The notes under the pieces: generated by a model
Told to the model about the DNA's origin: nothing
Seen by the model: the letters and a program-made list of their open reading frames with translations, nothing else
Databases searched by the model: none
Shown: positions 35,431-52,723 of the stretch, in pieces
Numbering within the stretch: position 1 is the first letter of the stretch
Layout: the number at the start of each line of letters is the position of its first letter
Origin: Chitinophaga deserti
Lineage (GTDB): Bacteria; Bacteroidota; Bacteroidia; Chitinophagales; Chitinophagaceae
Direction: 5' to 3'
Assembly (NCBI RefSeq): GCF_003149455.1
Contig: NZ_QFFK01000001.1
Span: 124,001 to 188,000 of the forward strand
Length of the DNA: 64,000 bases
Made by a program: the position numbers and the translations under genes

Positions 35431-36441
35431 ATGCAGCCCGTTCTCACATTCACCGAAACAGGGATTTATTGTCCCGCAGGAGGTTTCTACATCGACCCCT
35501 GGAAGCCGGCCGACCGTGCCGTGATTACCCACGCCCATGCAGACCATGCCCGTATCGGCAGCCGGCATTACCTCTGTACAAAGGATTCCGTGCCTCTCCT
35601 GCAATTGCGGCTGGGGAAGGATATTTCCGTGCAGGGAACGGGGTGGGGAGAAACGGTGAAGATAGGCGGTGCGGAAGTATCGTTCCATCCCGCGGGCCAT
35701 ATGATAGGATCGGCACAGGTGAAAGTAACTGTAGGCGGACAAACATGGGTGGCCAGCGGCGATTATAAAACAGAGAACGACGGCATCTCCGGAGCCTTTG
35801 AACCTGTGCGCTGCCATACCTTTATTACGGAAAGTACCTTCGGCCTGCCCATTTACCGCTGGCGGCCCCAAACCGCCATCTTCGGTGACATCGAAGCATG
35901 GATGCGGGAAAATGAGGCTTCCGGGAAACAGAGTATACTGGTGGCTTACAGTTTGGGTAAAGCCCAGCGCCTCCTGTATAACCTGGCGCATACCGGCAAG
36001 CGCTTCTTCGTTCACGGGGCAATTTATAACGCCCACCAGGTATTGCTTTCGGCAGGATGGCCCCTCCCTCCCGTGGAGCTGATCACCCCTGAAACACCTA
36101 AAAGTGACCTGAAAGGCCAGCTAATAATTGCGCCTCCTTCGGCGGCGGACTCCGCATGGATGAAGCGCTTCTCCCCATATTCCCTCGGAGTATGCAGCGG
36201 ATGGATGCAGGTGCGGGGCAATGCCCGGAGAATGAATGCCGATGCGGGATTCGCGATTTCTGACCATGCAGACTGGACGGGGCTGCTACAATCCATCCGC
36301 GCCACACATGCCGAAAAAGTATTCGTGACACACGGCTTCAGCAGCACGCTGGCGCGTTACCTCGAGGAAAACAACATACCCGCAGAAGCCGTGCGTACTG
36401 CTTTCGGCGGAGAAGAAGAAACGACCGAAACCACTGTATGA
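35431..36441 (+). CDS. Ligase-associated DNA exonuclease, metallo-beta-lactamase fold
   Basis: The 336-residue protein has the MBL metal motif HAHADHA at 34-40 and further ligands in FHPAGHMIGSAQ and SGDYKTE; the C-terminal SDHADWTGLLQSI and VFVTHGFSSTLARYL complete the beta-CASP-like layout. It belongs to the SNM1/Artemis-like group found beside ATP-dependent ligases. It is 3 bp before the ligase start, so they are translated from one message. It probably trims DNA ends during repair. Confidence 0.9.
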   Translation: MQPVLTFTETGIYCPAGGFYIDPWKPADRAVITHAHADHARIGSRHYLCTKDSVPLLQLRLGKDISVQGTGWGETVKIGGAEVSFHPAGHMIGSAQVKVTVGGQTWVASGDYKTENDGISGAFEPVRCHTFITESTFGLPIYRWRPQTAIFGDIEAWMRENEASGKQSILVAYSLGKAQRLLYNLAHTGKRFFVHGAIYNAHQVLLSAGWPLPPVELITPETPKSDLKGQLIIAPPSAADSAWMKRFSPYSLGVCSGWMQVRGNARRMNADAGFAISDHADWTGLLQSIRATHAEKVFVTHGFSSTLARYLEENNIPAEAVRTAFGGEEETTETTV

Positions 36442-36444
36442 CCC

Positions 36445-38043
36445 ATGCATCAGTTCTCCCAACTCATTTCAGACCTTTCGCATAGCACCAAAACCAATGA
36501 AAAACTGGAGCTGCTCAGCCGGTATTTTTCTACTGCCGACGAGCGCGACAAAGCCTGGATGCTGGCCCTTTTCAGTGGCAGAAGGCCCAAACGGGCAGTT
36601 AACTCCGCTCAGCTGCGCCGCTGGTGCCAGGAGGCTGCCGGGCTGCCTGAATGGCTCTTCAATGAATGTTATCATACCGTAGGCGACCTCGCCGAAACCA
36701 TTGCCCTGCTGCTGCCACCGCCTGAACGCGGGGAAGCGCCCAGGCCGCTGCATTACTGGATAGAATCACTCATGCTGCTGGAAAAAGCGCCGGAAGCGGA
36801 AAAGCAGGCTTTTATCCGCAACGCCTGGGAGCAGCTGCAGCCGGGGGAGAGGTTTGTTTTCAACAAGCTTATTACCGGCGGCTTCCGGATAGGGGTATCG
36901 CAGGGGGCGATGGTGAATGCCATCGCGAAAGCTTATGGCATGGAAGGGGCTGTGGTAAGCCATATGATCAGCGGCAACTGGGACCCGCAGCAAACCACGC
37001 TTCCGCAGCTGCTGCATAATCATCACAACAATCCGGACGATTCGAGGCCCTACCCTTTCTTTCTGGCGCATGCGCTGGATGGCGGGCCTGCCACACTGGG
37101 AGAACCAGCCGAGTGGCAGGCAGAGTGGAAATGGGATGGCATCCGCGGCCAGCTTATCCGCAGGAACGGACAGGTATTTTTATGGTCGCGCGGGGAAGAG
37201 CTGATTACGGATAAATTCCCCGAAATAGCCGGATTGCTCGATTATTTACCGGATGGAACGGTGATAGACGGAGAGATACTCGCATGGGATGAAGTACTGG
37301 CACGCCCGCTCCCTTTTCAGAATCTTCAAACCCGCATCGGCCGGAAGAACCTTACTAAAAAACAACTACAGGAATCGCCCGTAGTACTGCTGGCATATGA
37401 TCTGATGGAATGGAACGGGCAGGATATACGCCTGCTGCCCCTGCGCGACCGCCGCCTGCAGCTGGAAGCGCTGGCAGATTCCGTCAACCAGCCGGCATTG
37501 AAGATATCGCCATTGATCACCTATACCGACTGGGACGAACTGGCCACCATTAGAGCGCAAAGCCGGGACAATAACAGTGAAGGCCTCATGCTGAAAAATG
37601 CAGGCTCTACCTACCAGGTGGGCCGCAGGCGGGGCGATTGGTGGAAATGGAAAGTAGACCCTTTTACGGTGGATGCCGTGATGGTTTATGCCCAGAAAGG
37701 GCACGGCCGCCGGTCGAATCTTTATACCGATTATACCTTTGCCGTGCGCAATGGCGATCAGCTGGTGCCTTTTGCAAAGGCATATTCAGGGCTTACGGAT
37801 GTGGAGATCGGGCAGGTAGATGCCTGGGTGAAGAAGCATGCCGTGGAAAAATTCGGGCCGGTGCGCACGGTAAAGCCTGAACTGGTGTTCGAAATTGCTT
37901 TTGAAGGAATAGCCGCCAGCAACCGGCATAAATCCGGTATAGCCCTCCGCTTCCCGCGTATCCACCGCTGGCGGCATGATAAACCCGTGTCAGAAATCAA
38001 TACGCTCGACGATCTGAAGCAACTGCTGGAACAACAATCGTAG
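36445..38043 (+). CDS. ATP-dependent DNA ligase
   Basis: The 532-residue ligase has an N-terminal DNA-binding domain (about 1-200), the adenylation domain with AMP-accepting Lys229 in EWKWDGIRG, motif III DGTVIDGEILAWD, motif V DWWKWKVDP and a C-terminal OB domain ending RFPRIHRWRHDKP. It seals nicks in repair; the replicative enzyme would be a NAD ligase elsewhere. It forms a unit with the exonuclease gene. In the usual arrangement the helicase follows directly, but here two transport genes lie between. Confidence 0.95.
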   Translation: MHQFSQLISDLSHSTKTNEKLELLSRYFSTADERDKAWMLALFSGRRPKRAVNSAQLRRWCQEAAGLPEWLFNECYHTVGDLAETIALLLPPPERGEAPRPLHYWIESLMLLEKAPEAEKQAFIRNAWEQLQPGERFVFNKLITGGFRIGVSQGAMVNAIAKAYGMEGAVVSHMISGNWDPQQTTLPQLLHNHHNNPDDSRPYPFFLAHALDGGPATLGEPAEWQAEWKWDGIRGQLIRRNGQVFLWSRGEELITDKFPEIAGLLDYLPDGTVIDGEILAWDEVLARPLPFQNLQTRIGRKNLTKKQLQESPVVLLAYDLMEWNGQDIRLLPLRDRRLQLEALADSVNQPALKISPLITYTDWDELATIRAQSRDNNSEGLMLKNAGSTYQVGRRRGDWWKWKVDPFTVDAVMVYAQKGHGRRSNLYTDYTFAVRNGDQLVPFAKAYSGLTDVEIGQVDAWVKKHAVEKFGPVRTVKPELVFEIAFEGIAASNRHKSGIALRFPRIHRWRHDKPVSEINTLDDLKQLLEQQS

Positions 38044-38295
38044 CCCCATCGCATTACCCTTTTAGTCTACAGAATATGTGTTGAAGTCATGTACTACCTT
38101 TGGTTTGCGGGGGAGAAGTCCCTGCCGCCAAAACATCCTTAAACCGTACAGAACGGAAGGGAAAAGGACCAATCATTCGACGACCAACATTAAAAAAACG
38201 CAATTGTACCTACCATTGCCGAAGTCATTGGCTTTTCTTTCGTAATGCCCGAGGATGCAACATTCTATTCACACGTGAAAATTTGATAACGCCAG
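38044..38295 (+). other. Intergenic region before the TauE/SafE gene
   Basis: No gene is supported. A -7-like TACCTTTG lies at 38095-38102, 194 bases before the TauE ATG, with no clear -33 element. No terminator is evident for the ligase transcript, so read-through into the transporter gene is possible. Confidence 0.4.
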
Positions 38296-39111
38296 ATGGA
38301 CTTGCAGGCCGCATTGTTGTTAGTATTAATAGGATTTGGAATCGGAACCTTCGGTACCCTGATAGGGGCCGGTGGAGGCTTTATATTAATGCCCCTCCTG
38401 TTACTCATGTATCCCAACATGGAACCGGATGTGCTCACCAGTATTTCACTCGCCGTAGTTTGTCTTAACGCTACTTCAGGATCTGTAGCCTATGCCCGTA
38501 AAAAACGGATCGACTACCGGTCGGCCGCCATCTTTGCAGTAGCCACCCTGCCGGGAGCTATCCTCGGCGCTATGGCCACCAGCGTTATCTCAAGGCATAC
38601 CTTTAACCTCATTCTCGGAGGATTATTAATCGTCATCGCAATTTTTCTCATACTGAAACCTAACCGCGGAGCCTATGCCGCGGGTACCCTCAAGGGTAAA
38701 TGTGTAGATCGTGATCTTACCGAACGCAGCGGGGAGCAGCATCAGTACCGTTTTAACATCTGGTACGGCATCGCCATCAGCTTTGCCGTAGGCTTTATCA
38801 GCAGTTTGCTGGGCATCGGCGGTGGCATCATCCATGTGCCTGCACTCATCAGCGTACTTAACTTCCCCATCCACATCGCCACAGCCACCAGTCACTTTAT
38901 TCTGGCCATTATGTCGCTGGCAGGCACGATAGTGCACATGATCCAGGGCAGCTTCTGGGAAGGCTGGCAAACAGCTCTCTCCATTGGTATTGGTGTGGTG
39001 GTAGGTGCCCAACTGGGCGCAGGACTTTCCAGCAAAGTAAAGCCCAAAGGCATCATGATTGCCCTGGCAGGCGCACTGCTTATTGTTGGTGTAAGACTTC
39101 TTTTTACCTGA
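38296..39111 (+). CDS. TauE/SafE-family sulfite exporter-like permease
   Basis: The 271-residue membrane protein has about eight hydrophobic segments in two homologous halves, each with the family's glycine-rich signature: GTLIGAGGGFILMPLLL at about 20-36 and SSLLGIGGGIIHVPALI in the second half. The family moves small organic anions, sulfite or sulfoacetate. The neighbours (DNA ligase, purine permease) give no clue to substrate. Confidence 0.88.
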   Translation: MDLQAALLLVLIGFGIGTFGTLIGAGGGFILMPLLLLMYPNMEPDVLTSISLAVVCLNATSGSVAYARKKRIDYRSAAIFAVATLPGAILGAMATSVISRHTFNLILGGLLIVIAIFLILKPNRGAYAAGTLKGKCVDRDLTERSGEQHQYRFNIWYGIAISFAVGFISSLLGIGGGIIHVPALISVLNFPIHIATATSHFILAIMSLAGTIVHMIQGSFWEGWQTALSIGIGVVVGAQLGAGLSSKVKPKGIMIALAGALLIVGVRLLFT

Positions 39112-40431
39112 TTACTGTAGTAGAAAACTCAGTACAAACAGTACGGAAAGCACGTACATCACCGGGCTGATCTCCCGGTATTTTCCTGTAAATACTTTCA
39201 GTAAAACATAAGACAGCATCCCGAACACGATTCCTTCGGCGATGCTGTACGTGTATGGCATCATCACAATCGCCAGAAAGGCGGGGATGGCTTCTGTCAC
39301 ATCTTCAAAATTGATCTTCACTACCGACCCCATCATCAGCATCCCCACAATAATCAGGGCAGGCGCCGTAGCTGCCGCGGGTATCATGGCAAAAAGCGGT
39401 GCAAAAAACAATGCCAGCAGGAACATGCCCGCAACGGTAACGGCAGTAAGCCCTGTGCGCCCGCCGGATGCAATACCGCTGGCGCTTTCCACATAAGCCG
39501 TTACCACACTCGTACCCAGCAATGCCCCTGCCGTTGTACCTACGGCATCTGCAAACAATGCCTGTTTGGCGCGGGGGATGCGGCCCTGACTATCGAGCAG
39601 TCCGGCTTTATTGCAGAGCCCTATCAATGTACCCACTGTATCGAACAAGTTGACCATCAGGAGGGTGAAGAGGATCACCACCATGTCCATGGTAAAAATC
39701 TTATCGAATTCAAGCTGAAAGGCAATCGGGGAAAGACTGGGCGGCAGGCTTACGATACCATGCTCCGGCCACATGGTAAGCCCCAGGGGAATGCCCGCCA
39801 GCGTGGCGAAGAGTATCCCAATCAGAAGTGCGGCATTTACTTTCCGGTACATTAAGACGGCGCTCACAACCAGCCCAAGCAGGGCAATGAGCGGTCCGGC
39901 GCTGGTAATGTGCCCTATTTTGAGGATCACCCCATCCAGTTTGTCCTCCCCTATATGGCGCATACCTGTTTCAATTATGCCCGCATTGGCCATGCCTATC
40001 AGTGCGATCAGCAGTCCGATTCCGACGGATATGGCGTGTTTGAGATTTTCGGGAATGGAATTGATGATGGCTTCACGGATATGAAAAAGGGAAAGGAAGA
40101 TGAATATGATCCCTTCCAGGAAAACGGCTGTTAGTGCGAACTGCCAGCTGTAACCCATACCCAGCACAATGGTGTAGGCGAAAAAAGCGTTCAGTCCCAT
40201 GCCCGGAGCGAGGCCCACGGGCAGTTTGGCGTACAGTCCCATCACGAGCGTACCGATGGCGGCGGCCAGGGCGGTGGCGGTGATGAGCGCGTTAAAATCC
40301 ATGCCTGTTTTGGAGAGGATCATGGGGTTTACCGCCAGGATGTAGGCCATGGTGGAAAAGGTAGTGAGGCCCGCCAGCAACTCCTGCCTGACGGTGGTAC
40401 CGTTCTCGTGTAAACGAAAGAAATCGCGCAT
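39112..40431 (-). CDS. Purine (guanine/hypoxanthine) permease, AzgA-like NCS2 family
   Basis: The 439-residue permease has about 12-14 membrane segments. AYILAVNPMIL, LPVGLAPGMGLNAFFAY and LFDTVGTLIG are hallmarks of the AzgA branch that takes up guanine, hypoxanthine or adenine. I chose the ATG at 40431 (MRDFFRLHENGTTVRQE) because a longer frame adds 44 non-family residues across the divergent helicase start. It ends 1 bp before the TauE stop, so the two genes converge without a terminator. Confidence 0.9.
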   Translation of the reverse strand: MRDFFRLHENGTTVRQELLAGLTTFSTMAYILAVNPMILSKTGMDFNALITATALAAAIGTLVMGLYAKLPVGLAPGMGLNAFFAYTIVLGMGYSWQFALTAVFLEGIIFIFLSLFHIREAIINSIPENLKHAISVGIGLLIALIGMANAGIIETGMRHIGEDKLDGVILKIGHITSAGPLIALLGLVVSAVLMYRKVNAALLIGILFATLAGIPLGLTMWPEHGIVSLPPSLSPIAFQLEFDKIFTMDMVVILFTLLMVNLFDTVGTLIGLCNKAGLLDSQGRIPRAKQALFADAVGTTAGALLGTSVVTAYVESASGIASGGRTGLTAVTVAGMFLLALFFAPLFAMIPAAATAPALIIVGMLMMGSVVKINFEDVTEAIPAFLAIVMMPYTYSIAEGIVFGMLSYVLLKVFTGKYREISPVMYVLSVLFVLSFLLQ

Positions 40432-40435
40432 ACGG

Positions 40436-40443
40436 CAAAGGTA
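40436..40443 (-). promoter_or_regulatory. -7 element of the purine permease, leaderless
   Basis: On the minus strand TACCTTTG ends 4 bases before the ATG, so the transcript should begin at or next to the start codon. The divergent helicase ATG is 36 bases away on the other side. Confidence 0.55.
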
Positions 40444-40478
40444 TGCCTTGCGGGAATTTTTCCTAATTTCAATGTCTG

Positions 40479-42923
40479 ATGAAAAACACACCCGGCTGGC
40501 AAGCGATCGAACAGTGGCTGGGAGCAAAAGGGCTTGCCCCCTTTGCCTTCCAGGAAGAAGCATGGGAACATTACCTGCAGGGCCGCTCCGGCCTCGTAAA
40601 TGCCCCTACGGGCTTCGGCAAAACGTTTTCCTTATTCCTGGGAACCGTGATCCGCTGGATCAACGAAAACCCCAAAGATTACCGGAAACGTACCGGCAAC
40701 GGTCTCCGCCTTATGTGGATCACCCCGCTGCGGGCACTCGCTAAAGACATAGGGCGCGCCATGGAGGAAGCCCTCCGTGAGCTGGATGTACCCTGGGCGG
40801 TAGGTATCCGCAGCGGGGATACGCCTGCCAGCGTGCGCGAAAAACAAAAGCGCAGCATGCCCGAAGTGCTCATCATCACCCCCGAATCCCTTCACATCCT
40901 CCTCGCCCAGCGGGAATATCCTAAACGCTTTGAGCACCTGGAAACTATCGTGGCCGACGAGTGGCATGAGCTGCTTGGCTCCAAGCGCGGGGTTATGACC
41001 GAGCTGGGCATCAGCCGTCTCCGTGGCTTACGTCCTCATCTCCGCATCTGGGGCATTTCCGCCACTATCGGCAACCTCGACGAAGCGCTTGATGTACTCC
41101 TCGGCAATCTGCCCGGTGAGCGGGTGATTGTTAGGGCCGATGTGCATAAGGCCATCGAAGTGGAAAGCATCCTGCCCGATGAGATCGAGAAATATCCCTG
41201 GGCCGGGCATATGGGGTTGCGCCTCCTGCATAAAGTGCTGCCCGTGATCATGGAAAGTAACACCACCCTCCTTTTCACCAATACCCGCGGACAGTCCGAA
41301 ATATGGTACCACCAGATCCTGAAGGAATGCCCCGAGCTGGCAGGCGCCATCGCCCTGCACCACGGATCTATCGACGCCGAGCTGCGCATTTGGGTGGAAG
41401 AAGCCCTGCATACCGGTACCCTCAAACTGGTGGTATGTACTTCCAGTCTTGACCTCGGCGTGGATTTCAGGCCGGTGGATACGGTGATTCAGGTGGGCAG
41501 TCCAAAGGGTGTGGCCCGTTTCCTGCAACGGGCAGGGCGTAGCGGTCACAGGCCCGATGCTGTGAGCCGTATCTGGTTCCTCCCCACCCACTCCCTCGAA
41601 CTGGTAGAAGCCGCCGCGTTGAAAGACGCCATGGTGGAGAACCTTATCGAAAGCAGGATGCCCGTTATCCTAGCGTATGACGTGCTGCTCCAATACCTGA
41701 TGACGCTCAGTGTGTCTGAAGGGTTTGAGGCGGAACAAATACGGAAAGAAGTACAGTCTACTTTCTGCTTCCGGGATCTGACCAATGATGAATGGAACTG
41801 GTGCCTTTCCTTCCTCGTATCGGGCGGCGAAGCACTGCAGGTATACGATGAATATCATAAAGTCCACCTCGTGGGCGACCGTTACTACTGCACCAGCAAG
41901 CAGCAGGCCATGCGCCACCGCCTGCACATAGGCACCATAGTGAGCGATGCCATGCTGAAAGTGCGGTACATGACGGGGGGATACATCGGTGTTATTGAAG
42001 AATATTTCATATCCCGCCTTACTCCGGGCGACAGCTTCCGCCTCAGCGGTCATAACCTCGAATTTGTTATGATCAAAGACATGACGGTGCTGGTGCGCAA
42101 ATCCAAATCAAAGAAAAGCATTGTACCCAGCTGGAACGGTGGCCGTATGCCCCTTTCCGCCAACCTCGGGATGATGCTGCGCCGGAAGTTCCATGAGGCT
42201 ATGGCAGGCAAGGCCCATGAGCCGGAAATCGTTATTTTGCAGCCGCTTTTTGAGTTGCAGCAGATGCTGTCTCACATCCCACGGGAAAATGAGCTGCTGA
42301 TGGAGCAAATCAAAACGGAAGACGGGTATCATCTTTTTGTATATCCTTTCGAGGGGCGCCTGGTGCATGAAGTGATGGCCATGCTGCTGGCCTGGCGTAT
42401 CAGTCAGCTGCATCCCATCACGTTCTCCATTGCCATGAACGATTACGGATTCGAGCTGCTGAGCGACCAGCCCATCCCGGTAGACGATACTAATGCGGAT
42501 GAGCTTTTCTCTGTAGAAAATCTTACCACCGATCTGCAAAGCAGTGTAAACGCCACGGAAATGGCGCGCCGTAAGTTCCGGGACATCTCAGTCATTGCAG
42601 GGCTTGTATTCCAGGGGTATCCGGGTAAATCGAAAGCTAACAGACATCTGCAATCGTCTGCTTCGTTATTGTTTAAAGTGTTTGAGGATTATGACGCGCA
42701 GAATATCCTGGTGCGGCAGGCGTACAACGAAGCATTTTTTTACCAGATGGAAGAAGCCCGTTTACGGGAAACTTTGGAGCGCATCCGCAACAGTAAGATC
42801 GTGATTACTTTCCCACAGCGGCTAACGCCGTTCTGCTTCCCTATTAAGGTGGATAGCCTGCGTGAGGAACTGACCAGTGAGAAGCTGGAAGACAGGATTA
42901 AGAAGATGACCCTGTGGCAGTGA
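40479..42923 (+). CDS. Ligase-associated DEXH-box helicase (Lhr-like)
   Basis: The 814-residue superfamily 2 helicase has motif I NAPTGFGKTFS (Lys48), motif II DEWH in IVADEWHELLG, motif III ISATIGN, and motifs V/VI in CTSSLDLGVDFRPVD and VARFLQRAGRSGHRP. The C-terminal Lhr-core region (about 430-814) follows. It is shorter than full Lhr (about 1500), matching the Lhr-core form found with repair ligases and MBL exonucleases. It unwinds DNA or DNA:RNA during repair. PdeM lies 92 bp downstream. Confidence 0.93.
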   Translation: MKNTPGWQAIEQWLGAKGLAPFAFQEEAWEHYLQGRSGLVNAPTGFGKTFSLFLGTVIRWINENPKDYRKRTGNGLRLMWITPLRALAKDIGRAMEEALRELDVPWAVGIRSGDTPASVREKQKRSMPEVLIITPESLHILLAQREYPKRFEHLETIVADEWHELLGSKRGVMTELGISRLRGLRPHLRIWGISATIGNLDEALDVLLGNLPGERVIVRADVHKAIEVESILPDEIEKYPWAGHMGLRLLHKVLPVIMESNTTLLFTNTRGQSEIWYHQILKECPELAGAIALHHGSIDAELRIWVEEALHTGTLKLVVCTSSLDLGVDFRPVDTVIQVGSPKGVARFLQRAGRSGHRPDAVSRIWFLPTHSLELVEAAALKDAMVENLIESRMPVILAYDVLLQYLMTLSVSEGFEAEQIRKEVQSTFCFRDLTNDEWNWCLSFLVSGGEALQVYDEYHKVHLVGDRYYCTSKQQAMRHRLHIGTIVSDAMLKVRYMTGGYIGVIEEYFISRLTPGDSFRLSGHNLEFVMIKDMTVLVRKSKSKKSIVPSWNGGRMPLSANLGMMLRRKFHEAMAGKAHEPEIVILQPLFELQQMLSHIPRENELLMEQIKTEDGYHLFVYPFEGRLVHEVMAMLLAWRISQLHPITFSIAMNDYGFELLSDQPIPVDDTNADELFSVENLTTDLQSSVNATEMARRKFRDISVIAGLVFQGYPGKSKANRHLQSSASLLFKVFEDYDAQNILVRQAYNEAFFYQMEEARLRETLERIRNSKIVITFPQRLTPFCFPIKVDSLREELTSEKLEDRIKKMTLWQ

Positions 42924-43015
42924 TGCCCTGCTGCGTTTAAGGCAGCTGAGGGTCGCCCTACTTTTATAACTATAACAAAAACATCCCGGCATATCCGGTT
43001 AAAATAAAGATAGCA

Positions 43016-43666
43016 TTGGAAGATATCAGGTATGAAATGAAGGGCGGACACTGGCGGTTATCTGCCGGCAAAGCAGTGTATTGGGAAGAAGAGCGGGCGC
43101 TCATTGTGGCAGACCTTCATGTGGGAAAGGCGGCTCATTTCCGCAAAGCGGGTATTGCGGTACCGGGGAACATTGTGCAGGAAGACCTGTACCGGTTGCA
43201 GCAACTGATCACCAAATACAATCCGCAGCGGCTAATTGTGGTGGGTGATATGTTCCATAGTTCTGCTAATAACGAAGTGCAGTATTTCCGGATCTGGCGC
43301 AACCAGTTTCCACATATCCGGTTCGAGCTGGTAACGGGTAACCACGATATCATGGACCCGTCTGTATATGCATCTCTCGATGTTCAGCTGATGGATACGC
43401 TGACGCTGGGAGGCATTTACTTTGTGCATGACCCAAAAGACAAACCTGCAGATAACGGGGAACTTTATGCCATGTCGGGCCACATTCATCCGGGAGTTTG
43501 GATGGTGGGTAATGGCCGGCAACGTTTGCGGCTGCCGTGTTTTTATTTTGGTGCGGAGGGTGCTATCCTGCCTGCGTTCAGTGCATTTACCGGGACGTAT
43601 TGTGTGGAGCCCGGGGAAGATTCGGAGGTTTTTGTAATTGGAGGGACGGGGGTGTTTAAGGTGTAG
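43016..43666 (+). CDS. pdeM: Ligase-associated DNA damage response phosphoesterase PdeM
   Basis: The calcineurin-like metallophosphoesterase (216 residues) has the metal-binding series ADLHVGK, VVGDMFHSS, VTGNHD and SGHIHPG. It is the fourth member of the ligase/exonuclease/helicase set and would act on damaged DNA ends. I use TTG at 43016 because it keeps the first beta-strand expected before WRLSAGKAVYW; the ATG at 43037 is a shorter alternative. It ends 4 bp from the convergent VOC gene. Confidence 0.85.
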   Translation: MEDIRYEMKGGHWRLSAGKAVYWEEERALIVADLHVGKAAHFRKAGIAVPGNIVQEDLYRLQQLITKYNPQRLIVVGDMFHSSANNEVQYFRIWRNQFPHIRFELVTGNHDIMDPSVYASLDVQLMDTLTLGGIYFVHDPKDKPADNGELYAMSGHIHPGVWMVGNGRQRLRLPCFYFGAEGAILPAFSAFTGTYCVEPGEDSEVFVIGGTGVFKV

Positions 43667-45760: not shown

Positions 45761-45901
45761 TGTCAATGGTTAACTTGGGGTTGGGAAAACAACGATGAAA
45801 TCCTTTGCATATGACATACGGTTTATTCTATGTCACAATCTTTAAGCGTTCAGTTGTTGCCCTGATACGGTCGCAAAATTATTTTATGTTACTACAATGC
45901 C

Positions 45902-46081
45902 CTGGTATCGCTACCTGCATCTACTGACAATAATATGCTGGTTTCACTTCCCGCAACTGCTGATAATATTATCCTGGTATTACTACACGCATCTACAGAT
46001 AATCATATTCTGGTATCGCTATCTGCATTTGCTGTTAATAATATGCTGGTATCACATCCCACACCTGCTGAAAATAACACA
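45902..46081. repeat. Five tandem 36-bp imperfect repeats
   Basis: Units start at 45902, 45938, 45974, 46010 and 46046, each opening CTGGTWTYRC or similar. Read in the frame of 45902, each unit gives 12 residues like LVSLPASTDNNM. That frame lacks an upstream ATG, though an internal ATG at 45935 opens 70 codons. A second plus-strand frame is open too. Coding is unproven. Confidence 0.85.
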
Positions 46082-46295: not shown

Positions 46296-47051
46296 TCAGT
46301 TCTTCATCTGCTTCTTCAGCATGCTTACCTGCTCCTGAAGCTGGTTTACCATACCTGCAAGGTGGTTCACGCTCATTTTATGCTGCTGGCCCATTTTCTG
46401 GATAACAGCATCTGCCGCCCAGATCTCCAGTACTTCTTCCATATTCACAGAATAAGGATCGTACATGGGATTGTCGGAAGCAAGCGTAACCTTGGCTTTG
46501 GAACGGTTGCTTTTCAGTACACGCTTGTAAACAATGCCTTCGCGGTTGGTCACCACAATGTATGCCTCGTTATTCCGGATATCCTCCCAGCCGTCTACCT
46601 TATGGCAAACTACTACGGAACCGGATGGTGTTGGCAACATGGAATCCCCTGCGATCTCAAAAGCACGGTATTGGCCCGCACCCAGCATGGGCAAAGTAAA
46701 TGTGTTCAGCTCATCGATGAACTCGTCATCATTGAAGCCCGCGAGATAACCCGCAGCGGCCTTTACCGGAACAAATACTACATTCTGACGGTTGGTACCG
46801 CCCAGCTTCTGCTGGCGCCTGCGCTCCAGGAAGCTTTCCTTGGCAGAACTCAGGTCGCGCCGCAACAGATCGTCGATCGAAACACGGAACATATCGCTCA
46901 CCTGTTCCAATACCTCTGTTCGAGGCTCGGCACGCTCCTCTTCATAAGCCCCCAGTAAAGAACGCTTTATGTTAAGGCGGTCAGCAAATTCCTGCTGCGT
47001 CCAGCCCTTTTGCTTGCGCAGATATTTAAGATTTTGGCAAACAGTAGACAT
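46296..47051 (-). CDS. XRE-type, S24 peptidase-containing LexA-like repressor
   Basis: The 251-residue regulator has an N-terminal XRE helix-turn-helix (QNLKYLRKQKGWTQQEFADRLNIKRSLLGAYE, about 6-38). A C-terminal S24/LexA-type domain follows, with the catalytic Ser in IAGDSMLPTPSG and Lys in GIVYKRVL. An Ala-Gly bond in VKAAAGYLAG is at the place where such proteins self-cleave. A short coiled coil ends it. I chose the ATG at 47051 because the longer frame would translate through two dyads that look like its own operators. It probably represses itself and dinB-dnaE and is released by DNA damage; this is inferred. Confidence 0.85.
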   Translation of the reverse strand: MSTVCQNLKYLRKQKGWTQQEFADRLNIKRSLLGAYEEERAEPRTEVLEQVSDMFRVSIDDLLRRDLSSAKESFLERRRQQKLGGTNRQNVVFVPVKAAAGYLAGFNDDEFIDELNTFTLPMLGAGQYRAFEIAGDSMLPTPSGSVVVCHKVDGWEDIRNNEAYIVVTNREGIVYKRVLKSNRSKAKVTLASDNPMYDPYSVNMEEVLEIWAADAVIQKMGQQHKMSVNHLAGMVNQLQEQVSMLKKQMKN

Positions 47052-47091
47052 CCCTAAATTATTTAGTACAACAATGCTAACAAAATTAGCA
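47052..47091 (-). promoter_or_regulatory. Repressor promoter with two tandem dyad operators
   Basis: On the plus strand TGCTAA-CAAAA-TTAGCA (47075-47091, perfect arms) and CCCTAA-ATTAT-TTAGTA (47052-47068, weaker) are centred 23 bp apart. A minus-strand -7-like TAATTTTG (47088 to 47081) lies inside the strong dyad. The weak dyad directly abuts the ATG at 47051. The same motif is paired again upstream of dinB. Confidence 0.7.
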
Positions 47092-47162
47092 AACATTTTT
47101 TGTAATAAAAAATTTTATCTGTGACTCAACGCTTATTTTTGCCCCGGACAAACTCAAACAAT

Positions 47163-47627
47163 ATGCAAGCTTTGTTAGACATTCACTCTTACGTGCGCTG
47201 GCTCATCCTCGCCTTTGGCGTAATCGCAGTGATCCGCGCCATTATGGGCGTTACCGGAAAGAAGCCTTACGGCGCAGGCGATACCAAGGCCGGCCTCTTT
47301 TTCATGATCTTCCTGGACATTCAGCTGTTGATCGGCCTGGTGCTTATGTTCACCAGCTCGCTCACCAAAACCGCTTTTGGCAATATGGGCGCCGCAATGG
47401 GCGACAAAGTGCTCCGTTTCTTTACCGTTGAGCACACCCTGCTGGGCATCATCGCCATCGCGCTCGTTCACATCGGCCGTTCCAAAATCAAGAAAGCTGA
47501 CTCGGATGCTAAAAAGCACAAAACCGCGCTCATCTTCTTCGGTCTCGGACTCGTGCTCATCCTCGCCATGATCCCATGGCCCGGCCGTGAACTGATCGGC
47601 AGAGCACTGCTCCCCTCCCTCCGTTAA
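47163..47627 (+). CDS. Four-helix membrane protein, unknown function
   Basis: The 154-residue protein has four hydrophobic segments (about 10-30, 42-65, 88-106 and 120-140). Histidines near the start of helix 1 (DIHSYVRW), helix 3 (VEHTLLG) and its end (ALVHIGRS) could bind haem, as in small cytochrome b-like proteins, but this is speculative. I start at ATG 47163, 22 bases after a TATTTTTG -7-like element (47134-47141). It is divergent from the repressor, so the repressor's operators lie close to its promoter. Confidence 0.75.
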   Translation: MQALLDIHSYVRWLILAFGVIAVIRAIMGVTGKKPYGAGDTKAGLFFMIFLDIQLLIGLVLMFTSSLTKTAFGNMGAAMGDKVLRFFTVEHTLLGIIAIALVHIGRSKIKKADSDAKKHKTALIFFGLGLVLILAMIPWPGRELIGRALLPSLR

Positions 47628-47646
47628 TAGTTTTATAACTATCCAT

Positions 47647-47689
47647 AAAAAAAGTAAGAACAGGTTGATCCCCGTTCTTACTTTTTTTT
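47647..47689. terminator. Bidirectional terminator
   Basis: AAAAAAAGTAAGAAC pairs with GTTCTTACTTTTTTT around a 12-base loop. It serves the membrane-protein gene on the plus strand and the SdpI-like gene on the minus strand. Confidence 0.85.
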
Positions 47690-47729
47690 ATGCACGGGAA
47701 TGCTTGCCACTTCCCGTGCCCACGACGAT

Positions 47730-48404
47730 TCAACCCTGCGTCTTATAAAATAACCGGTAAGAATAAATGTAAGGCAGTGCCGCCAGGGCCATCCCCGCAA
47801 AAATAAACAGGAACACCCCGCTCATCACCGGCATAAACATCCCGGCTACCATAATTACAATACCTGCATACAGCCACAACCTGCCTGCCATATGGTGCGT
47901 TTCCGTCCATATAACATCATTGGCCAGCGTCCACGGAGTACGGACGCCCACAAAATAGTTGGGTTTGAGATTCCGCAGGAAAACACCCAGCGCTGCAATA
48001 AGGAGCCCTACGCCCACAAACACCCATTTCTCCAGGAATATTTCCCTGCCTGTACTGATCAGATAGATGACAATTGATGTAAATACAGCCAGATAGATAT
48101 GTATCCGGAAACGGATGCGGTAATATTCTTTCATATACGCCCTGAATTCAGCCGGCGTTTCATCCCATACATCCCGCTTCGGAATATACCGGAACAATGC
48201 GTACAGCATGCCATTCGTAAAAAAGAGGAAGATCATTAACAGGAGGAACTCCCTTTTGTACACCATCCCGTCGGCCTCGCCGTTCAGGTTAAAATTGGTG
48301 GGAATCTGCGCAGGAAGCGTATTCCAGATCAGTGCAAGGTACACCATGGGCCCTAACAGCAGTGCCAGCAGCAGGACTTCTTTAACATAATCCGTGTGTT
48401 TCAT
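47730..48404 (-). CDS. DUF1648/SdpI-family membrane protein
   Basis: The 224-residue protein begins with a DUF1648 module (LPAQIPTNFNLNGEADG, about 30-46). It ends with an SdpI-type module (NYFVGVRTPWTLANDVIWTE) and about six membrane helices. SdpI of Bacillus is an immunity protein against a toxin, but most homologues have unknown roles. It is divergent from dinB, with 118 bp between the start codons that also hold the dinB operators. Confidence 0.85.
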   Translation of the reverse strand: MKHTDYVKEVLLLALLLGPMVYLALIWNTLPAQIPTNFNLNGEADGMVYKREFLLLMIFLFFTNGMLYALFRYIPKRDVWDETPAEFRAYMKEYYRIRFRIHIYLAVFTSIVIYLISTGREIFLEKWVFVGVGLLIAALGVFLRNLKPNYFVGVRTPWTLANDVIWTETHHMAGRLWLYAGIVIMVAGMFMPVMSGVFLFIFAGMALAALPYIYSYRLFYKTQG

Positions 48405-48466
48405 AACGAAATGGATTAGTTCTACCTATTAAACAAACGCCTGGTTGCTTTAGTTTATTATTTCTT

Positions 48467-48507
48467 TGCTAACTGCATTAGTTTTGCTAATTATTTTAGT
48501 AATTTTG
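48467..48507 (+). promoter_or_regulatory. dinB-dnaE promoter with two tandem dyad operators
   Basis: TGCTAA-CTGCA-TTAGTT (48467-48483) and TGCTAA-TTATT-TTAGTA (48485-48501) are centred 18 bp apart. The second runs into a TAATTTTG -7-like element (48500-48507), 15 bases before the dinB ATG. Left half-sites are identical to the strong site upstream of the S24 repressor. A repressor bound here would cover the promoter. Confidence 0.7.
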
Positions 48508-48522
48508 GGTAAAGACACGATT

Positions 48523-49746
48523 ATGTTGTTAGACGGCCAACGCACGATCGCGCATTTCGACCTGGACTGCTTTTTTGTTTCGGTTGAATGCCTGAAAGAT
48601 CACAGCCTTAAGGGCAAGCCCCTCCTCGTAGGCGGCAAGGGCGACAGGGCCGTGGTGGCAGCCTGCAGCTATGAAGCCCGCACTTTTGGCATCCACTCCG
48701 CCATGCCTATGAAAATGGCTTTGCGGCTTTGTCCGCATGCCATAATCAGAGGCGGGGACTTTGAAGAATACAGTCATTTTTCGCGGGAAGTGACCGACAT
48801 TATCGCCGGTTCGGCCCCGTTATATGAAAAATCCTCCATCGACGAATTTTACCTGGACCTGACAGGGATGGATAAATACTTCGGTTCCCTCAAATGGACC
48901 ACCGAACTCCGCCAGAAAATCATGCGCCAGACGCATCTGCCCATCTCCCTCGGCCTGGCGTCCAATAAAATGGTGTCGAAAGTAGCCACCAACGAAGCCA
49001 AACCAAACGGACAGCTTTCCATCCCCTTCGGGCACGAAAAAGGGTTCCTCGCCCCTATGCCGGTCGATAAAATACCCATGGTAGGGAAAGAAACCGCTGC
49101 ACAGCTCCGCCGCCGGGGGGTAGAAACCGTGAAAACCCTCAGCGAGATCCCTGTTGGCCTCCTGGAGGCCTGGATGGGGAAAAACGGGATATCCCTCTGG
49201 AACAAAGCCAATGGGATCGATGAATCGCCCGTAATTCCGTTTCATGAGCAAAAATCTATTTCTACGGAACAGACTTTCCCGCAGGACACGATAGACCTGG
49301 GTTTTATGCACAGCGAACTGGTGAGGATGACGGAAAAGATCGGCTTCGAGCTCCGGCAGCAAAACCGGCTTACCGGCTGTGTAACTGTCAAAATCCGGTA
49401 TTCCGACTTCGAAACCGTCACCAAACAACTCAGTATCCGCTATTCCTCCAGCGATCATGTGCTGCTGGAGCATGTGAAACAACTGTTCTCCAAGCTGTAC
49501 GACCGCAGGCTGCTGGTACGCCTGATCGGCGTGCGGTTCAGCAACCTCGTTTCAGGGAATTACCAGATCAGTCTTTTCGATGATACGGAAGATATGATTT
49601 CATTATACCAGGCTATCGACAGCATTAAACAGCAGTTCGGCTGGCAATACCTGATGCGTGGCAGCAGCAGCGGTGGAAACTTCGATCAGCAGCTGCAGCC
49701 CTACCAGAAGGAAACCCTGATTATGAAACGCCGATATCCTCATTAA
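48523..49746 (+). CDS. dinB: DNA polymerase IV (Y family)
   Basis: The 407-residue translesion polymerase has the catalytic aspartate in AHFDLDCFFVSVE (Asp13), the second acidic pair in SSIDEFYLDLTG (about 106-107), helix-hairpin-helix LPHP-like region PMVGKETAAQLRRRGVETVKTL and a complete little-finger domain. I start at ATG 48523, because the longer frame (from 48466) adds 19 hydrophobic residues and crosses the operators. One base separates its stop from the dnaE start, so the two polymerases are co-expressed. Confidence 0.95.
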   Translation: MLLDGQRTIAHFDLDCFFVSVECLKDHSLKGKPLLVGGKGDRAVVAACSYEARTFGIHSAMPMKMALRLCPHAIIRGGDFEEYSHFSREVTDIIAGSAPLYEKSSIDEFYLDLTGMDKYFGSLKWTTELRQKIMRQTHLPISLGLASNKMVSKVATNEAKPNGQLSIPFGHEKGFLAPMPVDKIPMVGKETAAQLRRRGVETVKTLSEIPVGLLEAWMGKNGISLWNKANGIDESPVIPFHEQKSISTEQTFPQDTIDLGFMHSELVRMTEKIGFELRQQNRLTGCVTVKIRYSDFETVTKQLSIRYSSSDHVLLEHVKQLFSKLYDRRLLVRLIGVRFSNLVSGNYQISLFDDTEDMISLYQAIDSIKQQFGWQYLMRGSSSGGNFDQQLQPYQKETLIMKRRYPH

Positions 49747-49747
49747 C

Positions 49748-52723
49748 ATGTACCTGAATTGCAAATCCTGGTTCAGCCTGCGTTACGGCACCATCCGTAC
49801 CGACGAGCTCGTGGCTACCGCCAAGGCCCACGGGATTACGTCGCTCGCACTTACAAATATCAATGCAACTACGGATGCATGGATGTTTGTACAGGAATGC
49901 ATGCAGCACGACATCAAGCCCATCCTCGGCTTAGAATGCCGGAACGGTGCTGCTTTCCGGTACATCCTCCTTGCCCGGAATATGGACGGATGGCTGTCTA
50001 TTAACCGCTTCCTCTCCCGGCACCTCCAATCAGAAGAACCATTTCCGGAGCAAGCCCCTTTTCTGCCGGAAACCTTTGTGATATACGCCTGCGGAGCCAG
50101 ACCACTCCATTCTTTAGCGGAAAACGAACTGATAGGCATCCGCCCCAGGGAACTAAACCGCCTGTTCCGGACAGATACCCGGCGCTATGCAGATAAGCTC
50201 GTTGTATTACAGCCCATCAGTTTCCAGAACGAAGAATCCCAGCGGCTGCACCGGGTTTTACGGGCAGTCGATAATAATTTGCTCATCAGCCAATTGCCGC
50301 CGGAAGAAGTGGCAGGGATAGATGAATGCTTCATCCCTCCCTTTCAACTGCTGGAACTATTTAAAGAACAACCCCACATCGTCCGCAATACCCTCCGGGT
50401 GATGGAGGAATGCCAGCTGCATTTCACCTTCGGGCAACACCTCAACAAAAAACGTTTTACACACAGCCGCGAAGGCGACCGAGAACTGCTGAGGGACCTG
50501 GCATATGAAGGGATGGAATACCGCTACGGAATTGGAAATGCAGAAGCGAAACAACGCATCGATAAAGAATTGCTGATCATCGACCAGCAGGATTTCAATG
50601 CTTACTTCCTCATTACCTGGGACATTGTGCGCTATGCCCGTCACCGCGACTTCTTCCATGTAGGCAGAGGCAGCGGGGCTAACTCCATCATTGCTTATTG
50701 CCTGGGCATCACGAACGTAGACCCCATTGCGCTGGATCTGTATTTCGAGCGGTTCCTCAATCCGCACCGCAGCTCTCCTCCTGATTTCGATATCGACTTC
50801 TCCTGGCGCGACCGGGATGAGATCTTCGATTATATTTTCAATAAATACACGACAGAACATACCGCCCTGCTGGGAACCGTGGCTACCTTCCAGACAAACG
50901 CCATCGTACGCGAGCTGGGCAAAGTATATGGATTACCCAAAGGCGAGATCGACAAAATCCTTGAAAACCCTTACCAGGTAAAACTGGGAGAAGACAATGT
51001 GCATCAGCGCATCATCCGCTATGGCCGCATGCTCGACCGGTTCCCCAATCACCTGAGTATTCATGCCGGCGGTATCCTCATCAGTGAAGCGCCCATCCAT
51101 CAGCACTGCGCAACGCACCTGCCCCCCAAAGGGCTTTGCACCGCGCAGCTGGATATGCATCTGGCAGAAGCCATCGGCCTGCATAAATTCGATATCCTTA
51201 GTCAGCGCGGCCTCGGGCACATCCGTGATTCGCTGGATATCATTAAAGAAAACCACGGGCTGGATCTGGACATCCACGATGTTAAATCCTTCATGGAAGA
51301 TCCCAAGGTGAAGGACGCCCTCCGTAATGTTCAGACTATCGGTTGCTTTTACATCGAATCTCCCGCCATGCGGCAACTGCTGCGCAAGCTGCGTTGCGAC
51401 GATTACATCACGCTTGTGGCTGCCAGCTCGATTATTCGTCCGGGTGTGGCACAGGCGGGCATGATGCGGCAGTATGTGCTGAACTTCCATCAGCCCGACA
51501 AAGTGGAATACCTCCACCCCGTCATGAAAACCCTGCTGGGAGAAACGTATGGCGTGATGGTGTACCAGGAAGATGTGATCAAGGTAGCGCACCACTACGC
51601 CAACCTCGATCTGGCAGATGCAGACACTCTCCGGCGTGCTATGGCAGGAAAATACCGCGGGCAGCAGAACTTCGAGAAGATCAAGAACCTTTTCTTCGAT
51701 AACTGTGAAAAACTGGGGCGCCCCAGGGCCGTGAGTGATGAGGTGTGGCGCCAGATCGCCAGCTTTGCTAATTTCTCATTTTCCAAAGCGCACTCGGCCA
51801 GTTTCGCCGTGGAAAGCTATCAGAGTCTTTACCTGAAAACTTACTTTCCGGCAGAGTTTATGGTGGCAGTTATCAACAATTTCGGCGGGTTCTATAACCG
51901 GGAACTGTATTTCAGGGAGCTGAAGAAAACCGGCGTCAATATCAACCCGCCCTGTGTTAACCGTAGTGACTATTACACTAACATCAAGAAAAACGAAGTG
52001 CATGTTGGGTTTATACATGTGGAGAAACTGGAGCAGGCATGGATCGAATCCGTGCTGGACGACCGTAAAGCGAACGGGTATTTCCTCAATATGGAAGATT
52101 TCGTGAACCGTACGCAGCCTCACCCTGCACAGCTGGAAATTCTGATACGCATCGGGGCTTTCCATTTCACGAAGGAAACAAAGAAGAACCTTTTGTGGAA
52201 AAGCGCTGCGCTGTTGCGCAGGGATACAAACGATCCCTCAAAGCCCGGGCTATTCAGGGAGCCTTCCCGCAACTGGACGCTGCCTACGCTCTCCTATCAC
52301 GATCACGAGGATGCATTCGATGAAATTGAACTGCTGGGCTTTCCGCTGACTTCACCCTTTGGCGTATTGCAACACGACCAGCGCAAATACATGCCGGTTG
52401 CTGATCTGGAGCGTCATCTGGGCAAAAACGTATCCATGCTCGGCTACCTCGTAACACTCAAACATGTCTATACCGTAAAACAGGAAGCCATGTGCTTCGG
52501 TACTTTCCTCGACCGTGATGGCGACTTTCTCGACACTGTGCATTTCCCCGACAGTCTGCGCCGGTACCCTTTTATGAAAGGCGGCTTTTATATTCTTGAA
52601 GGCAAAGTGATAGAGGAGTTCGGGGTATATTCCCTCGATGTACACTACATGCGGAAAATAGGATACTTCGAAGATAAAGCGAAAGAAACCGGCACCCTTC
52701 GCGCTCCGCTCAGTACTGCATAA
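49748..52723 (+). CDS. DnaE-type DNA polymerase III alpha subunit, error-prone-like
   Basis: The 991-residue C-family polymerase is shorter than replicative DnaE (about 1160). The catalytic triad is in VGRGSGANSIIAYCLG and PDFDIDFSWRDRDEIFDY (about 344-361), and the third aspartate region is LHKFDILSQRGL. HHH and OB-fold regions follow (FDEIELLGFPLTSPFG). The PHP domain is degenerate: NCKSWFSL replaces the usual H-x-H-S opening and LTNINATT the LTDH motif. Coupling to dinB under shared operators suggests a DnaE2-like mutagenic role, analogous to imuB-dnaE2 cassettes. A second, replicative dnaE should exist elsewhere. Confidence 0.9.
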   Translation: MYLNCKSWFSLRYGTIRTDELVATAKAHGITSLALTNINATTDAWMFVQECMQHDIKPILGLECRNGAAFRYILLARNMDGWLSINRFLSRHLQSEEPFPEQAPFLPETFVIYACGARPLHSLAENELIGIRPRELNRLFRTDTRRYADKLVVLQPISFQNEESQRLHRVLRAVDNNLLISQLPPEEVAGIDECFIPPFQLLELFKEQPHIVRNTLRVMEECQLHFTFGQHLNKKRFTHSREGDRELLRDLAYEGMEYRYGIGNAEAKQRIDKELLIIDQQDFNAYFLITWDIVRYARHRDFFHVGRGSGANSIIAYCLGITNVDPIALDLYFERFLNPHRSSPPDFDIDFSWRDRDEIFDYIFNKYTTEHTALLGTVATFQTNAIVRELGKVYGLPKGEIDKILENPYQVKLGEDNVHQRIIRYGRMLDRFPNHLSIHAGGILISEAPIHQHCATHLPPKGLCTAQLDMHLAEAIGLHKFDILSQRGLGHIRDSLDIIKENHGLDLDIHDVKSFMEDPKVKDALRNVQTIGCFYIESPAMRQLLRKLRCDDYITLVAASSIIRPGVAQAGMMRQYVLNFHQPDKVEYLHPVMKTLLGETYGVMVYQEDVIKVAHHYANLDLADADTLRRAMAGKYRGQQNFEKIKNLFFDNCEKLGRPRAVSDEVWRQIASFANFSFSKAHSASFAVESYQSLYLKTYFPAEFMVAVINNFGGFYNRELYFRELKKTGVNINPPCVNRSDYYTNIKKNEVHVGFIHVEKLEQAWIESVLDDRKANGYFLNMEDFVNRTQPHPAQLEILIRIGAFHFTKETKKNLLWKSAALLRRDTNDPSKPGLFREPSRNWTLPTLSYHDHEDAFDEIELLGFPLTSPFGVLQHDQRKYMPVADLERHLGKNVSMLGYLVTLKHVYTVKQEAMCFGTFLDRDGDFLDTVHFPDSLRRYPFMKGGFYILEGKVIEEFGVYSLDVHYMRKIGYFEDKAKETGTLRAPLSTA

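Follow-up and report, generated by a model that had tools for sequence, protein, structure and literature searches.

A LexA-type repressor with a Cro/CI-type DNA-binding domain and its CTAA-N5-TTAG operators at the dinB-dnaE2 locus of Chitinophaga deserti

Introduction

The DNA analysed here is a stretch of 64,000 nucleotides from Chitinophaga deserti (RefSeq assembly GCF_003149455.1, contig NZ_QFFK01000001.1, positions 124,001 to 188,000), referred to below as the window and numbered from its first letter. It carries the gene of a repressor with a Peptidase_S24 domain and, a little further on, the genes of two DNA polymerases, dinB and dnaE2; the promoters of the repressor and of the polymerase pair share the same dyads. 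What does this repressor control? An earlier reading of the sequence (the original prediction) saw a self-contained SOS-like regulon, with motif and wiring read from the sequence. The present analysis gives a different answer. The locus is an already published system found in another genome, and its regulon is global. In all likelihood the repressor is a Bacteroidetes non-canonical LexA of the CTAA-N5-TTAG group, the SOS master repressor that releases its own promoter and those of dinB-dnaE2, recA and other genes. The initial observation is confirmed, and the core mechanism drawn from it is very probably right.

The CTAA-N5-TTAG motif and a repressor family combining S24 and PF01381 domains were reported in Bacteroidetes by Sanchez-Osuna et al. 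2021 (PMC8565304). According to the passages of that paper considered here, the regulator of P. actiniarum binds CTAA-N5-TTAG specifically in an electrophoretic mobility shift assay (EMSA) that included half-site and spacer mutants, and mitomycin C induction was followed in Bacteroidetes, P. actiniarum among them, by reverse transcription quantitative PCR (RT-qPCR). The non-canonical regulators bind their own promoters, with multiple sites per promoter, the reported targets comprise recA, umuDC, dinB, radC and topoisomerase IV among others, and the Chitinophagaceae are counted with the families that have large regulons. The system is therefore not new, its motif, repressor family and wiring having been published with EMSA and RT-qPCR data. 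Our literature searches on the motif together with Bacteroidetes LexA, and on SOS, LexA or dinB in Chitinophaga, returned this paper alone.

Results and discussion

Operators and promoter elements

Exact CTAA-N5-TTAG matches occur four times in the window, and all four lie at the repressor or the dinB-dnaE2 promoter, as first proposed; dinucleotide shuffles of the window (n = 100) hold 0.55 matches on average, and none reaches four. Operator R1 (CTAAATTATTTAG, 47054-47066) immediately precedes the start codon of the repressor, and R2 (CTAACAAAATTAG, 47077-47089) follows it within the repressor promoter. The other two, D1 (CTAACTGCATTAG, 48469-48481) and D2 (CTAATTATTTTAG, 48487-48499), are upstream of dinB. 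The four 17-bp dyad intervals originally described each enclose one of these exact cores. The longer TGCTAA-N5-TTAGCA form given for them is complete at 47075-47091, whereas the other three sites have the CTAA/TTAG core with partial flanks.

The sequence TAATTTTG, which we take to be a -7 promoter element of the Bacteroidetes type, is found at both promoters. On the minus strand, at 47081-47088, it lies within operator R2; on the plus strand, at 48500-48507, the -7-like element of dinB abuts the core of D2. An overlap of -7 element and operator was originally predicted for both promoters. A TANNTT(T/A)G sequence directly follows the TTAG of the last operator at dinB in 25 of 32 Chitinophaga-type loci (defined below).

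The repressor protein

The repressor (251 amino acids, 46296-47051, minus strand) is a non-canonical LexA-type protein read from the ATG at 47051; for this gene and for dinB (ATG 48523) the best start gives a protein shorter than the mechanical open reading frame (ORF). The N-terminus matches HTH_3 (PF01381, Cro/CI type; Pfam E 1e-13, residues 8-62) and the C-terminus Peptidase_S24 (PF00717; Pfam E 1.3e-9). The helix-turn-helix families among its Pfam matches at E 0.001 are of HTH_3 type only, and the LexA winged-helix family is not among them, which bears out the XRE-type rather than winged-helix DNA-binding domain originally assigned to it. The predicted cleavage bond is Ala100-Gly101 and the catalytic dyad Ser137/Lys176, so that the Ser/Lys dyad and Ala-Gly bond of the original prediction are present and conserved among relatives. 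The matched pieces, rather than full proteins, of 87 relatives were aligned (32 from Chitinophaga-type loci, 29 from genomes of the family, and 26 more distant). All 87 have A100-G101 and S137, and K176 is kept in 85, the exceptions being one gap and one Q. The nearby A104-G105 was considered as the cleavage site and rejected: Ala104 is present in 32/32 Chitinophaga-type and 25/29 family sequences, but in 2/26 of the distant ones, against 87/87 for A100-G101.

With canonical LexA the repressor shares the S24 domain with self-cleavage residues and the predicted autoregulation; it differs in having HTH_3 and in its motif. The likeness to the Bacteroidetes non-canonical LexA of the CTAA-N5-TTAG group, as far as the group is described in the passages cited above, extends to the helix-turn-helix and S24 domains, the Ala-Gly bond, the Ser/Lys dyad, the motif, the own-promoter sites, the paired sites and the overlapping targets (recA, umuD/C, dinB, radC, topoisomerase IV). 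Nothing material differs except that this is another genome, in which umuD and the umuC-like gene stand on separate contigs.

The HTH domain by itself could suggest another origin, namely as the immunity repressor of a phage or mobile element which came by chance to lie beside a polymerase operon and is no SOS regulator. Its best matches are indeed to repressors of phages and integrative and conjugative elements (the Xre regulator of ICEBs1, 3.1e-7; the RstR family, below cut-off). However, 76 of the 79 genomes searched in the family have a match to the repressor (counting those that are weaker, partial or more distant), the gene accompanies dinB-dnaE2 in every Chitinophaga-type locus, and the dyads recur at recA promoters; we consider a stray immunity repressor most improbable.

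The dinB-dnaE2 operon

DinB (407 amino acids, 48523-49746, plus strand) is a Y-family polymerase (PolY) with a Pfam IMS match at 1.8e-46, and it passes the cut-off of the NCBIfam model for DNA polymerase IV, PRK02406. One base after its stop codon, dnaE2 encodes a DnaE2-type C-family polymerase (991 amino acids, 49748-52723, plus strand; Pfam DNA_pol3_alpha 5.7e-64). In Protein Data Bank (PDB) alignments the active-site residues D13 and D107-E108 of DinB are kept in the window protein, and D13, D107, E108, D366 and G373 are conserved in 80/80 relatives. At residues 348-352 DinB has QISLF, presumably a clamp-type motif. Its tail, AIDSIKQQFG (364-373), set beside the N-terminal helix of RecA from this genome, appears by eye RecA-NT-like. 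The Pfam matches of DinB do not include DUF4113. The DnaE2-type polymerase aligns in PDB alignments with solved Pol III alpha subunits across the catalytic Asp motifs, which are kept; the choice of the Asp residues counted as catalytic is our assumption.

A Y-family and DnaE2 operon under an SOS repressor is reminiscent of the ImuA-ImuB-DnaE2 cassette under LexA. That cassette, with its catalytically dead ImuB, was rejected as a description of this operon because DinB keeps its active-site acids, in the window and in all 80 relatives, and the operon has no imuA. Genome-wide, the ImuA profile NF033429 found only RecA, below cut-off, and a search with PF00154 at E 0.1 gave one RecA-family protein; absence of ImuA from the genome is nonetheless unproven, because NF033429 had no working positive control (over cut-off in 0/14 control genomes, Caulobacter included).

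The dinB-dnaE2 pair instead resembles, on sequence grounds, the DnaE2B-PolY-RecA module described as a putative mutasome of Bacteroidetes (PMC12926913), which in the cited part of that work has an active Y-family polymerase together with DnaE2 in genomes without ImuA/ImuB. The common points are a PolY with active-site acids beside a DnaE2-type polymerase, an operon without imuA, and a possible RecA-NT-like motif in the PolY tail, here judged by eye. In the excerpts used here, a PolY operon of Cellulophaga algicola is listed with DnaE2 and/or ImuB-C (PMC6511836), and reduced PHP and thumb domains are described for the DnaE2 of Bacteroidetes (PMC3919608). A complex of DinB and DnaE2 would be in keeping with these likenesses.

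Sites elsewhere in the genome

The genome (6.33 Mb, 23 contigs) holds 35 CTAA-N5-TTAG sites, compared with 20 for an N4 spacer and 12 for N6. Twelve of the 35 are at eight units. Pairs precede the repressor, dinB-dnaE2, a PA0069-family radical SAM gene and umuD (two sites each), and the remaining units are recA, a umuC-like gene, radC and a gyrB/parE-type gene. The top NCBIfam match of the umuC-like gene is UmuC, at 393 bits with the cut-off of 431 not reached; umuD and the umuC-like gene are on different contigs, each with its own site or sites. The radC unit is divergent from a ribose-phosphate pyrophosphokinase gene. For the gyrB/parE-type gene every family score is below cut-off; it probably encodes topoisomerase IV subunit B, and the radical SAM gene would correspond to the SplB group of PMC8565304.

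The genome scan that the original prediction proposed thus found the motif upstream of recA and the umuC-like gene, and with it the regulon ceases to be self-contained. The idea that the repressor governs only itself and dinB-dnaE2, apart from the global SOS response, fits the window, where no other promoter has the dyad. In the same genome, however, the dyad also precedes recA, umuD, the umuC-like, radical SAM, radC and gyrB/parE-type genes; a search with PF00717 returned two S24 proteins, the repressor and UmuD, the latter being the only other S24 protein found; and in the family the recA promoter has a dyad in 29 of the 30 loci inspected (controls: reversed 1/30, N4 0/30, N6 0/30). These loci are the 30 best-scoring, with a recA match in 77 of the 79 genomes searched. 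A purely local regulon is accordingly hardly tenable; the sites outside the window, at recA, at umuD and at further genes, make this a global SOS regulon. Three Y-family polymerases were found with PF00817; none of the 35 sites adjoins the third of them (contig C21).

Conservation in relatives

Searching named genomes with DinB gave 431 loci, of which the best 80 (L040-L119) were used for the region around dinB. The first 32 (L040-L071) are called Chitinophaga-type, one of them being titled a Flavihumibacter metagenome-assembled genome (MAG). The nearest locus is L040, titled Chitinophaga pinensis isolate 3; identity to the window proteins is 100% for its repressor and 99% for its DinB. Within 700 nt upstream of dinB all 32 Chitinophaga-type loci have the dyad, paired in 31, with a spacing of 18 bp in 24 loci and 19 bp in 7; the operator pair at the repressor promoter is likewise present in 32/32, spaced by 20-23 bp. 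The conservation at orthologous promoters on which the original prediction was to stand or fall is therefore found at both promoters. A fixed helical phasing of the paired operators is not supported, the spacing being different at the two promoters (18-19 vs 20-23 bp). In the full set of loci the dyad lies within 220 nt of dinB in 37/80, and each of the control patterns (reversed, N4, N6) in 0/80; an N7 variant occurs once in L072-L119.

The repressor, a 154-aa membrane protein, an SdpI-like protein, dinB and dnaE2 co-occur in 32/32 Chitinophaga-type loci, always with the 154-aa and SdpI-like genes between repressor and dinB; L044 has about 4 kb inserted in the repressor-dinB-dnaE2 locus. In the wider family, the repressor promoter carries one dyad or more in 29 of the 30 best-scoring loci, the own genome and one congener included.

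This last count also bears on whether some other factor binds the dyads while the S24 protein regulates something else. Binding of the dyads by the repressor is here read from sequence, which leaves such a factor some room; the near-constant presence of the dyad at the gene's own promoter and the specific binding of CTAA-N5-TTAG by the P. actiniarum regulator in the EMSA reported in the cited part of PMC8565304 speak for the repressor itself, and we hold a separate binding factor to be very unlikely.

Several observations weigh against the assignment to the SOS master repressors or limit its reach. At dinB, L042 has a single dyad, two of the five loci L072-L076 are without it (L073 and L075, the dyad being present in the other three), and among the 43 more distant loci (L077-L119) it is found within 220 nt in four. 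The dyad is missing from the repressor promoter of L129 and from the recA promoter of L154. The loci are partly non-independent, with shared species names for L051/L052 and L065/L070, and the 30 family loci were picked by best score, with no random draw. In the genome, the pattern read backwards is commoner than the motif (73 vs 35 sites), although N4 and N6 are the fairer controls because the backwards pattern has a different base-step make-up. Furthermore, 23 of the 35 genomic sites are not at a recognised SOS gene. They are left unclaimed, because several are inside ORFs and their number is near the wrong-spacer counts (20 and 12). Their genes were assigned mostly by eye from where the ORFs begin; three of the 23 had a neighbour searched in Pfam, with a 2'-5' RNA ligase family protein at site L027, an RNA polymerase alpha C-terminal-domain-like protein at site L032 and no match at site L007. 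Finally, placement in the CTAA cluster is by domain content, motif and family, not by a tree, and binding, cleavage and damage induction are predicted for C. deserti.

Proposed mechanism

In the SOS master repressor model, a repressor dimer would bind the two dyads at its own promoter, giving autorepression, and likewise the two at the dinB-dnaE2 promoter, where the bound operators would cover or abut the -7 element. Upon DNA damage, the RecA filament is expected to trigger self-cleavage of the repressor at Ala100-Gly101 through Ser137/Lys176, which would free both promoters and, elsewhere in the genome, those of recA, umuD, the umuC-like gene, radC and others. DinB and DnaE2 would then carry out translesion synthesis, probably recruited through the RecA-NT-like tail of DinB. 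In this locus a mutagenic polymerase pair is linked to a clear and well-conserved SOS switch of the LexA-like kind, whose DNA-binding domain is of phage type. Such a switch, interesting for the study of mutagenesis in general, was already established in 2021, and what the C. deserti case adds are the conservation counts and the target list of its own genome.

Leader hairpins and other dyads upstream of dinB

A long dinB leader (108-377 nt from the last operator to the DinB match) is present in 20/32 Chitinophaga-type loci, not including the close kin of the window. Twelve of these loci (L054, L058-L060, L062-L066, L069-L071) have a conserved GC-rich hairpin between the operator pair and dinB, with the sequence GTGAT..CGGCTGGCAGGCC...GGYCYGCCATCCG..ATCGC and a double-sided pair change in 0/18 pairs. 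Six others (L051-L053, L055-L057) have a different long hairpin in the same place, with double-sided changes in 6/30 pairs, and the hairpin of L061 and L067 is shorter. The fold z-scores of five leaders are -4.9, -8.8 (L055), -1.4, -2.5 and -3.0, and that of L040, close kin of the window, is +1.0. That the hairpin is a dispersed repeat is not supported, as a query taken from one leader matched once per genome in the four genomes checked, each time at the dinB leader itself. At gathering thresholds, Rfam yielded only tRNAs in four leader-bearing loci (three from the 12-locus group), with no match to the leader, and nothing in the window.

Other dyads were observed in L072-L119. In 6 of these 48 loci the 250 nt before dinB contain GATTA-N5-TAATC, and 9 of its 12 copies in their 534 kb are there. 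In L090, L094, L109, L111 and L112 (three with a pair 23 bp apart) it is flanked by dinB and by the divergent gene of an S24 repressor that has 35-39% identity to the window repressor, and it is possibly the motif of another regulator. CGTCA-N6-TGACG is upstream of dinB in 4/48 loci (L082, L085, L089 and L093; MAGs titled Saprospiraceae in three cases and Chitinophagia in one), with 4 of its 5 copies in these loci at this place. With any other spacer between N3 and N9, neither GATTA/TAATC nor CGTCA/TGACG was found upstream of dinB in the 48 loci. Both dyads are leads and not tests, because they were spotted in the very sequences counted. L073, which has no CTAA dyad, shows three perfect GTTCC-N3-GGAAC-type inverted repeats in about 160 nt upstream of dinB.

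Tentatively, the leader hairpin may control the mutasome at the RNA level, as a second layer below repression by the LexA-type protein and, separately, other S24 regulators of Bacteroidota may read other dyads; we regard this proposal as possible but rather doubtful. Structured leaders and other dyads at orthologous promoters are leads on the evolution of SOS control.

Neighbouring features of the window

Facing the repressor promoter is the divergent gene of the hydrophobic 154-aa protein (47163-47627, plus strand), which has no family match. The SdpI/DUF1648 membrane protein (47730-48404, minus strand; Pfam SdpI 3.3e-20) is encoded divergently from dinB across D1-D2. Either gene is possibly a bystander or possibly co-regulated. 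Further away, 35431-43666 holds ligase-associated DNA damage response genes, with a DEXH helicase (TIGR04121) and a PdeM endonuclease (TIGR04123); by eye, the ORFs at 35431-36441 and 36445-38043 appear to encode the exonuclease and ligase of this set. CTAA-N5-TTAG was not found within this gene set. Downstream of the repressor gene, about 220 bp from its 3' end, a degenerate tandem repeat (45901-46077) runs for about 4.9 copies with a 36-bp period.

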